Source: Alphaproteobacteria bacterium (GTDB taxonomy: Bacteria; Pseudomonadota; Alphaproteobacteria; CADEGL01). Taken from it: a stretch of DNA of 61,457 bases. Position 1 is the stretch's first letter; each line of letters starts with the position of its first letter. The position numbers and the translations under genes were made by a program. The stretch lies in assembly GCA_026400755.1 (NCBI GenBank), contig JAPLOM010000003.1, positions 1-61,457 of the forward strand, given 5' to 3'. Shown here piece by piece: positions 21,936-24,154 of the stretch. Below the pieces are notes generated by a model. It did no database searches, was not told the origin of the DNA, and saw only the letters and a list, made by a program, of their open reading frames with translations.

Positions 21936-23225
21936 ATGACAATCCGGGCCGGACGGCTTGCCGCAAGCGTGTTGAGCGTTCTGGCCGTGGCCTTGGCCGC
22001 TTCGGCCGCCGCGCGCGCCCAGGTGCCGATCGGCAACCTGGTCGATATGACCGGCGATACGGCGATCGTCAGCAAGGAATACAGCCAGGGCAAGATCGAC
22101 GCGCTGGAGTGGATCAACCGGAACGGCGGCGTGAACGGCAAACGCATCGACGCCGACACGGTCGACTACGGCTACGCCGTGCCGCGCGCCCTCGCCACCT
22201 ATCGGAAATGGGCGAGCCAACCGAAGGTGACGGCGATCCAAGGCTGGGGCACGGCCGACACCGAGGCGCTGATCGACTTCGTCAACAAAGACCAGATTCC
22301 GTATTACTCGGCGTCCTACTCAGCACCACTGGCGGATCCCACCGGCAAGGGGCCGTCGAGCAAGCGCGCCGCGCCCTACAACTTTCCCATGGGTCCGACT
22401 TATTCGGACGGCTTGCGCGCCTTGCTGCAATGGGCGGCGGAGGATTGGAAGAAGCAGGGCAAAAGCGGCAAGCCAAAATACGTCCACATGGGCGACAACC
22501 ACCCCTATCCCAACGCGCCGAAGCGCGCGGGCGAAGAATACGCCAAGGAACGCGGCTTCGAGGTTTTGCCCGCCATCCAGTACTCGCTAACGCCGGGCGA
22601 CTTCCGCGCCCAATGCCTGACCTTGAAGGAGACCGGCGCGGATTACGCGTTCCTGGCCAACACGTCCGATTCCAACATCGCGCTCTTGAAGGCCTGCGCG
22701 GCGCTGGACGTGAAGACACAGATGATGGCCAACATCTGGGGCATGGACGAGAACGCGATGAAGGCGGCAGGCCAGGCCGCGGACGGCGTCGTGTGGGTGA
22801 TGGGCGCAGCGACATGGGGCGACGACGTACCCGGGATGAAGACGGTGCGCGACGTATCCAAGATGTCCGACCCGCGAGGGACGGCTTATCGCGCCGTGCA
22901 TTACATCCGTGGCGTCTGCGCCGTGTTCTTCATGAAGGAGGCGATGGCGTGGGCCGACGCGAACGGCGGCATCACCGGGCCCAATATCAAGAAGGGCATG
23001 TATCAAAAGAAGGAATGGGTGCCCGCGGGCCTCGAAGGAGCTTGCCCGCCCGGCACCTGGACCGAGAGTGACCATCGCGCCTTCACCCGCATCGCGATCT
23101 ACTGGGCCACGGTGAAAGGCTCGACCGATGCGCCGCTGGCGGAGCTGATGCGCACCGGCACGATCGGGATGAGGAAAATCTATCAGGCCGACGTGCCCCG
23201 GAAATCGAACTGGCTGGGCTGGTAG
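21936..23225 (+). CDS. ABC-type branched-chain-like substrate-binding protein, orphan
   Basis: A 429-residue periplasmic binding protein of the LivK/peripla_BP_6 type. It has a signal peptide (MTIRAGRLAASVLSVLAVAL, cleavage after ARAQ), then VPIGNLVDMTGDTAIVSKEY and YSQGKIDALEWINRNGGVNG, the usual opening of this fold. The ATG at 21936 follows AAAAGGTGACG. No permease or ATPase genes of a Liv system are nearby, so it must work with a transporter encoded elsewhere or have a sensing role. Ligand unknown. Very AT-rich sequence follows its stop. Confidence 0.88.
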   Translation: MTIRAGRLAASVLSVLAVALAASAAARAQVPIGNLVDMTGDTAIVSKEYSQGKIDALEWINRNGGVNGKRIDADTVDYGYAVPRALATYRKWASQPKVTAIQGWGTADTEALIDFVNKDQIPYYSASYSAPLADPTGKGPSSKRAAPYNFPMGPTYSDGLRALLQWAAEDWKKQGKSGKPKYVHMGDNHPYPNAPKRAGEEYAKERGFEVLPAIQYSLTPGDFRAQCLTLKETGADYAFLANTSDSNIALLKACAALDVKTQMMANIWGMDENAMKAAGQAADGVVWVMGAATWGDDVPGMKTVRDVSKMSDPRGTAYRAVHYIRGVCAVFFMKEAMAWADANGGITGPNIKKGMYQKKEWVPAGLEGACPPGTWTESDHRAFTRIAIYWATVKGSTDAPLAELMRTGTIGMRKIYQADVPRKSNWLGW

Positions 23226-23337
23226 GTTTTACTCACAGGAAAAGTCTATAAGTATTTGATTTATAATAATAATTTCGTCAAGATCGACCGGCGAAAATAC
23301 CTTTTTATCGCCATATTTCGGACCCGAAGCAGCCACC
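23226..23337. promoter_or_regulatory. AT-rich promoter-like region before the structured RNA
   Basis: Sharp drop in GC between the binding-protein gene and the structured RNA. It contains TATAAT at 23262-23267 on the plus strand, without a good -35 element at standard spacing, and a weak hairpin GGCGA/TCGCC at about 23290-23312. It probably holds the promoter for the RNA and perhaps for the ccm operon. Confidence 0.4.
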
Positions 23338-23472
23338 GTGCGAAGGCCTAATCTTCCTCGTGGCGAACCCCTCTCGGAGGCCCACCCCTTAGCCTCCGAA
23401 GATGGTCCGGGCAGAACCCCGGACCGCACCACCGGCCGCCGAGTTCCCCCCAACTCGGCGGCCACTTTTTTT
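23338..23472 (+). ncRNA. structured intergenic RNA ending in a perfect terminator
   Basis: A nested set of stems reads on the plus strand. GTGCG (23338-23342) pairs with CGCAC (23425-23429); ATCTTC (23351-23356) with GAAGAT (23398-23403); CGGAGGC (23375-23381) with GCCTCCG (23392-23398); GGTCCGGG (23404-23411) with CCCGGACC (23418-23425). A 12-bp terminator follows. No open frame is convincing here. It could be a free small RNA or a leader that controls ccmA, whose TTG start lies 70 bases beyond the terminator. I could not match it to 6S, SRP RNA or a known riboswitch by eye. Confidence 0.55.
23434..23472 (+). terminator. strong rho-independent terminator upstream of ccmA
   Basis: GGCCGCCGAGTT (23434-23445) pairs perfectly with AACTCGGCGGCC (23452-23463) around a six-C loop, followed by AC and seven T (23466-23472). 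Twelve uninterrupted base pairs plus a T-run make this one of the clearest terminators in the window. Confidence 0.85.
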
Positions 23473-23542
23473 GCCCATCGCCAATCGCCGCGTCCTCCCA
23501 AATCCGATAGCTTCGCCGCCGCCATCATCGACGAGGAACGCG

Positions 23543-24154
23543 TTGTTCACGGGCCGCGGTTTAATTTGCGCACGAGGCGAGCGGATCGTGTTCCGCGCGC
23601 TCGACTTCGCGCTGCGCCCTGGCGGCGCACTGGTGCTGGCGGGCCGCAATGGCGCGGGCAAGACCAGCCTGTTGCGTCTGATGGCCGGCCTGCTGCCGCC
23701 TGTCGGCGGCACGCTCGAATGGGATGCGGCACCGCTCGATCCCGATACGCACCGCGCGCGTCTGCGCTATGTCGGCCATGCCGATGCGCTGAAGGCTGCG
23801 CTGACGGTGCGGGAGAATCTTTCCTTCTGGGCCACGTTCGACGGCGGCGGCGATGTCGGCGCGGCATTGGCCGGCTTCGACCTCGCGGCCCAGGCTGAAA
23901 CGCCGGTGCGTTTTCTATCGGCCGGTCAGCGGCGGCGCACCGCGCTGGCGCGCCTTCTTCTGGCGCCGCGCACGCTATGGCTGCTCGACGAGCCGGGCGC
24001 GTCGCTCGACGCGGCAGGCGTCGAAACATTGTCCCGCGCCATCGGCGCGCATCGCGCCAAGGGCGGCATGGTCGTGCTGTCCGCTCATGGCGCGCCGCCC
24101 TTGGCCAGACACGACACGCTCGACATCGACGCGCTTTCGATGGCGACCGCATGA
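23543..24154 (+). CDS. ccmA: cytochrome c biogenesis ABC ATPase CcmA
   Basis: ATP-binding subunit (203 residues) of the CcmABCD complex that releases haem-loaded CcmE. Walker A is LAGRNGAGKTSLLRLMAG, the signature region is FLSAGQRRRTALARLL, and Walker B is LWLLDEPGASLD. The start is the TTG at 23543, directly after GAGGAACGCG; codons upstream are not conserved in type. It opens the nine-gene ccm operon and overlaps ccmB by four bases (ATGA). It lies downstream of the structured RNA and its terminator. Confidence 0.93.
   Translation: MFTGRGLICARGERIVFRALDFALRPGGALVLAGRNGAGKTSLLRLMAGLLPPVGGTLEWDAAPLDPDTHRARLRYVGHADALKAALTVRENLSFWATFDGGGDVGAALAGFDLAAQAETPVRFLSAGQRRRTALARLLLAPRTLWLLDEPGASLDAAGVETLSRAIGAHRAKGGMVVLSAHGAPPLARHDTLDIDALSMATA

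Follow-up and report, generated by a model that had tools for sequence, protein, structure and literature searches.

Directly upstream of the haem exporter ATPase gene ccmA, the stretch at positions 1–61,457 of contig JAPLOM010000003.1 (assembly GCA_026400755.1; Alphaproteobacteria bacterium, lineage CADEGL01), referred to here in its whole length as the window, carries a small structured RNA that recurs in many families of the class. The RNA is real, conserved and selected for base pairing, and it is mobile independently of ccmA. We consider it a stand-alone small RNA (sRNA) gene of about 110 nt, equipped with a putative promoter element and a terminator of its own, the product of which is predicted to silence mRNAs by C-rich pairing; we put the probability of this reading at about 0.72. 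As a family it is new; as a kind of RNA it is known. The first-pass annotation of the window had allowed for either an independent sRNA or a leader of the ccm operon. The former is favored by covariation, a conserved upstream box, the terminator and the retention of the RNA away from ccmA, whereas those displaced copies and the lack of a visible antiterminator or aptamer core speak against the latter.

In the window, the RNA occupies a gap (positions 23226–23542) in which, as first proposed, no credible gene is found. The compact stems and perfect 12-bp hairpin with seven T that originally drew attention to it are borne out by folding. The minimum free energy of positions 23338–23480 is -66 kcal/mol, compared with -43.6 ± 3.7 for shuffled sequences (z -6.03, 0 of 200 as low), and hairpin 3 consists of a perfect GC-rich 12-bp stem (23434–23463) with the loop CCCCCC, followed by AC and seven T (23466–23472). 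Of the 11 terminator-like hairpins of the window, no other has a loop containing CCCC. The original end at 23472 stands, but the original start at 23338 does not, the conserved RNA beginning near 23360, some 22 bases further in. Termination 70 bases before ccmA likewise holds if translation starts at TTG 23543, which comparison with homologues makes the most likely start, 70 nt past the end of the RNA.

A plain sequence search outside the genus gave no match, and covariance models were therefore needed. The order to which the window belongs is represented by five genomes of one family, each of which has the RNA upstream of ccmA; the alignment of these copies has 94% of cells paired (29–50% in slid versions). 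A model built from these five sequences alone, R2, was run on 385 alphaproteobacterial genomes; its best outside matches included four from other families (genomes G213, G379, G162, and G015) that sit directly before ccmA. When 30 ccmA loci were picked by CcmA similarity alone, two of them from the training family, 16 had an R2 match (E ≤ 0.01) before ccmA and on its strand, and weaker matches at the same site occur in Azospirillum melinis (28.8 bits) and in the metagenome-assembled genomes REEB11 and SS_bin_35. Thirteen sequences make up alignment A9, the basis of model R3, in which 93% of cells are paired, compared with 29–48% in slid versions, and the covariation score is 0.83 rather than 0.07–0.15. 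The compensatory changes that the first-pass annotation had suggested seeking among relatives are thus present, in 26 of 27 pairs across the 13 sequences, and 12 of 27 pairs are changed on both sides within the window's order. These alignments are model-guided because a MAFFT alignment put hairpin 1 in the wrong place.

At E ≤ 0.001, R3 matched 56 of the 385 genomes. Of its matches at 44 bits or more, 19 of 21 are directly upstream of ccmA, as are 8 of the 9 that lie outside the training set. The best match outside the class, in a phylum-wide sample, scores 41.7 bits and has no CcmA match nearby; as R3 matches below about 44 bits do occur in other classes, we relied on those that reach 44 bits or are located at ccmA. 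Strong matches occur in eight families of the class sample; the order of G303 adds another three, which brings the number of alphaproteobacterial families to at least 11. Five R1 or R2 matches (loci L027, L028, L034, L035, and L037) were discarded as plain terminators or coding DNA.

Whereas the stems vary freely, with compensation, the unpaired C-rich sequence is constant across the family. It comprises the 5' motif ACC(U/C)CCCUCU, which ranks with the best-conserved sequence of the RNA, and the C-rich loops of hairpins 1 and 3. The RNA has three hairpins, and many relatives have four; an extra 5' hairpin, with the 5' motif in its loop, is found in 25 of 39 relatives, and three unrelated stems (CUAGA/UCUAG, CUGAGA/UCUCAG, and ACGGAGA/UCUCUGU) enclose its CYUCCCC loop. 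The window copy has the 5' motif, as AACCCCTCTC, and lacks the extra hairpin. In this freedom of its stems the RNA resembles sRNAs with seeds in their loops and differs from the aptamers of riboswitches.

The position of the RNA, on the same strand and directly before ccmA, 50–150 nt from its start in most families, together with the conservation of the terminator, is what might be expected of a 5' leader of the ccm operon, in which the terminator serves as an attenuator and a haem, iron, copper or redox signal gates the reading of ccm. We nevertheless think a leader unlikely, because the RNA stays intact after moving away from ccmA. A leader should always be found in the 5' untranslated region (UTR) of the gene it regulates, and intact copies away from ccmA are seen in several genera of the order of G303, in which most carriers have the RNA before ccmA. 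In six genomes of one genus of this order (G109, G380, G566, G567, G568, and G569) the RNA adjoins lysE, in G564 and G565 neither lysE nor ccmA lies within about 1.5 kb of it, and G214 has 4.5 kb with several genes between the RNA and the downstream ccmA. In G300, of a further family, an opposite-strand SnoaL-like gene stands between ccmA and the RNA, there a weak match of 38 bits. In the relocated copies of the order of G303 the hairpins, the 5' motif, the terminator and the box upstream are all intact, and in G109 and G214 the ccmA site vacated by the RNA retains neither the RNA nor the box. In this order the RNA and its box have left ccmA at least three times. The distance to ccmA, moreover, is as short as 52 nt and as long as 386 nt in the aligned copies, and the RNA has no strongly conserved aptamer-like core, its stems being free to change. 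No competing antiterminator pairing was noticed, although no systematic search for one was made, and nothing points to the haem, iron, copper or redox sensing that the first-pass annotation had thought plausible.

The gene upstream of the RNA is also variable. In the window it is an ABC-transporter substrate-binding protein gene of branched-chain type, on the same strand as the RNA and ending at 23225, and not acnA, as first supposed; judged by sequence and open reading frames, acnA lies about 5 kb beyond it. Elsewhere the place is taken by a divergent acnA (G213, G379, and G302) or by mnmE (G162). That the linkage to ccmA is kept while the upstream gene changes is consistent with an extension of the sRNA reading in which ccm, too, is transcribed from the sRNA promoter, through read-through of the terminator, co-regulation then keeping the two together. 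We view this dual role as a tentative possibility, somewhat doubtful given that the linkage has been broken in one order without loss of the RNA, that almost every copy has a strong terminator, and that the acnA-ccmA neighborhood may be passive. Far less credible is the notion that the element is merely the 3' UTR of the upstream gene, with its transcription terminator, as the same-strand gene ending just before the gap might suggest. RNA and box persist where the upstream gene differs or diverges, and covariation is seen in three hairpins and not in the terminator alone.

The upstream element contains a GCC-A/T box, TGCCnnAWTT, which is present 46–66 nt 5' of the modelled RNA start in all 20 inspected loci, compared with 4.3 ± 1.7 in shuffles, a count that is descriptive, as the pattern was composed after viewing the sequences. 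The box is often preceded by ATCACA. It accompanies relocated copies of the RNA and is gone from ccmA where the RNA has left. The AT-rich, promoter-like region noted in the first-pass annotation is indeed AT-rich, with 37% GC at 23200–23299 against 65–74% around it, and is followed by the GC-rich, C-loaded stretch of the RNA; a consensus scan found no sigma-70 pair in it. Similar hexamers, CATATT or CATCTT, occupy the place of the possible -10 hexamer TAATCT in several relatives. Of the features of a trans-acting sRNA gene, the terminator is present, and the conserved upstream box points to a possible promoter. In a separate observation, three loci of one family (L203, L204, and L207) have, upstream of the RNA and before the GCC box, a palindrome like TGTGA-N8-TCACA, clear in L204 and L207, which suggests a possible site for a CRP/FNR-type or other dimeric regulator.

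How might such an RNA act? Transcription would begin near 23360, and Hfq would be bound through the U-rich 3' end. The exposed C-rich sequence, that is, the 5' ACCCCUCU motif and the CCCC loops, would pair with the G-rich ribosome-binding regions of several mRNAs, and this pairing would block their translation. The location by ccmA would be mostly an inherited neighborhood (acnA / RNA / ccmA), and some read-through into ccm may occur without being the main job of the RNA. The anti-Shine-Dalgarno end of 16S rRNA has the sequence ACCUCCUUUCU, which the constant C-rich motif of the RNA resembles. Because of this likeness, and of the parallels described below, we would expect translational repression of several mRNAs with G-rich starts, probably with Hfq. 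A more ambitious version, in which an sRNA family found widely in Alphaproteobacteria and absent from Rfam mimics the 16S anti-Shine-Dalgarno sequence in several loops and, through the shared box, links cytochrome c maturation and respiration to broad post-transcriptional control, strikes us as speculative, and we hold it at low confidence.

The closest functional parallels are NfeR1 (alpha-r14), the alpha-r8 sRNAs and GsrN, and it is on their account that we expect translational repression. NfeR1 has three hairpins with CCUCCUCCC in each and acts on the ribosome-binding sites of mRNAs, which it silences (PMC10746234). The alpha-r8 sRNAs MmgR and SisA-D use a C/U-rich 10-mer seed, UUUCCUCCCU (PMC12559287), and the C-rich loop of the Caulobacter sRNA GsrN recovers G-rich partners (PMC5869019). 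The RNA described here shares with alpha-r14/NfeR1 and cuckoo (CcsR) RNAs its stacked hairpins, a repeated unpaired C-rich, anti-Shine-Dalgarno-like motif, variable stems, a terminator and the bacterial class, and so has what their way of working involves. It differs from them in its motif, none of the inspected copies having CCUCCUCCC in its loops and the motif being instead ACC(U/C)CCCUCU or runs of C, in the lack of an Rfam match, and in having ccmA as a neighbor. The association with DUF1127 that sRNAs of alpha-r14/cuckoo type show, as at the CIN1 locus (PMC10253847), was not noticed at the inspected copies. Like the alpha-r8 group (suhB/MmgR, SisA-D), it is an alphaproteobacterial hairpin sRNA with a C/U-rich seed, unlike that group in having more hairpins, another motif and another location. 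A promoter and neighbors of the GsrN type were not seen on inspection of the sequence.

Comparison with known families agrees with the failure of the first-pass annotation to place the RNA in any class. Rfam at gathering thresholds finds one tRNA in the whole window and nothing for 6S, signal recognition particle, RNase P or transfer-messenger RNA; in eight relatives the sole match is sub-threshold, that of L033 to suhB (29 of 41 bits, E 0.026). For RF00519 (alpha-r8/suhB/MmgR/SisA) the window copy scores 13.7 bits against a threshold of 41, with 29 the best in a relative. The best E-value of the local Rfam scan, 0.0038, belongs to BjrC68 (RF02353), which likewise has a terminator in C-rich surroundings, at 20.8 bits against 39; 0 of 289 class genomes exceed its cutoff, and the weak matches are scattered. 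sX13 of the Xanthomonadaceae (RF02232; 24.7 bits, threshold 50) is also a multi-hairpin sRNA with C-rich loops, from another bacterial class, and matches to sucA-II and sR53 were at chance level. 6C RNA (RF01066; 27.6 bits, E 0.092, threshold 47), which includes B11 of mycobacteria, has about six C in the loop of each of two hairpins (PMC4046766); it is actinobacterial, and the likeness in C-rich loops is likely convergent. We found no description in the literature of an RNA upstream of ccmA, and transcriptome papers on Azospirillum and Magnetospirillum are silent on it in their main text.

Known systems also offer another use for the C-rich loops, namely to trap an RNA-binding protein, as a decoy, or G-rich RNAs, as a sponge, without mRNA pairing. 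Sequestering RNAs typically repeat similar loops, and in Caulobacter the C-rich alpha-r8 sRNAs themselves pair with the sponge CrfA (PMC12559287). The 5' motif is, however, like the anti-Shine-Dalgarno seeds of sRNAs known to pair with mRNAs (PMC10746234), and the data suggest no protein partner; sequestration is, in our judgment, improbable.

Several points weigh against an sRNA gene that acts in this way. C-rich loops occur in 34 of 114 terminator-like hairpins of the collected loci, a sample enriched in the RNA, and loop composition alone is no marker of the family. The alignments were fitted to the structure of the model, which favors the pairing counts. No sigma-70 consensus pair was found by a consensus scan of the AT-rich stretch, which did not pick up TAATCT, and the start site and promoter of the RNA are guesses from sequence. 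Finally, the linkage to ccmA, kept in many families, exceeds what would be expected of a pure bystander.

The features of the window copy are collected in Table 1. One consequence of its position concerns the neighboring gene: the longest-open-reading-frame prediction for ccmA, 23402–24154 (+), begins at ATG 23402, inside the RNA, whereas homologues favor TTG 23543, and in these genomes ccmA may have been annotated too long, hiding the RNA.

Table 1. Position and evidence for the RNA gene of the window and its neighbor
Feature	Positions	Strand	Evidence
Conserved upstream element AAAATACCTTTTTATCGCCATATTTCGG, core CGCCATATTT at 23309–23318; probable promoter or regulator-binding box (predicted function)	23294–23321	+	Sequence comparison
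Possible -10 hexamer TAATCT; putative transcription start near 23360	23349–23354	+	Sequence only
Whole RNA	23362–23473	+	Matches to covariance models R1, R2 and R3 (41, 94 and 74.5 bits)
5' motif AACCCCTCTC, C/U-rich, corresponding to ACCTCCCCTCT in relatives; a putative seed resembling an anti-Shine-Dalgarno sequence	23366–23375	+	Sequence comparison
Hairpin 1, loop CCACCCCTTA (CCCCCC in close relatives)	23372–23402	+	Fold; 10 of 10 helix pairs compensatory in 13 sequences
Hairpin 2	23404–23425	+	Fold; compensatory changes in 6 of 6 pairs
Hairpin 3, intrinsic terminator	23434–23472	+	Fold; 10 of 11 modelled pairs compensatory
ccmA (haem exporter ATPase), TTG start, Shine-Dalgarno GAGGA at 23533–23537; neighbor, outside the RNA gene	23543–24154	+	Alignment with CcmA of relatives

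Two further observations concern C-rich loops outside the family. Ordinary-looking terminators with such loops occur in several GC-rich proteobacteria (L035, L037, L050, L231, and L233). The genus of the window also has a second element of several hairpins, again with C-rich loops and ending in a terminator (G000:C62:205736-205835 on the minus strand, L051 and L213; G001:C11:43793-43893), which scores 39 and 41 bits with R3, under the best score outside the class, and is perhaps another C-loop sRNA.

Genome annotation overlooks this RNA, which lacks an Rfam model and would contain the start of ccmA in a longest-open-reading-frame call. The relocated copies distinguish a ccm leader from a free sRNA without experiment, and the present alignment and coordinates suffice for drafting a new RNA family. 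Because it is conserved in many families with a fixed box and constant C-rich seeds, the RNA probably regulates something general in the alphaproteobacteria that carry it.
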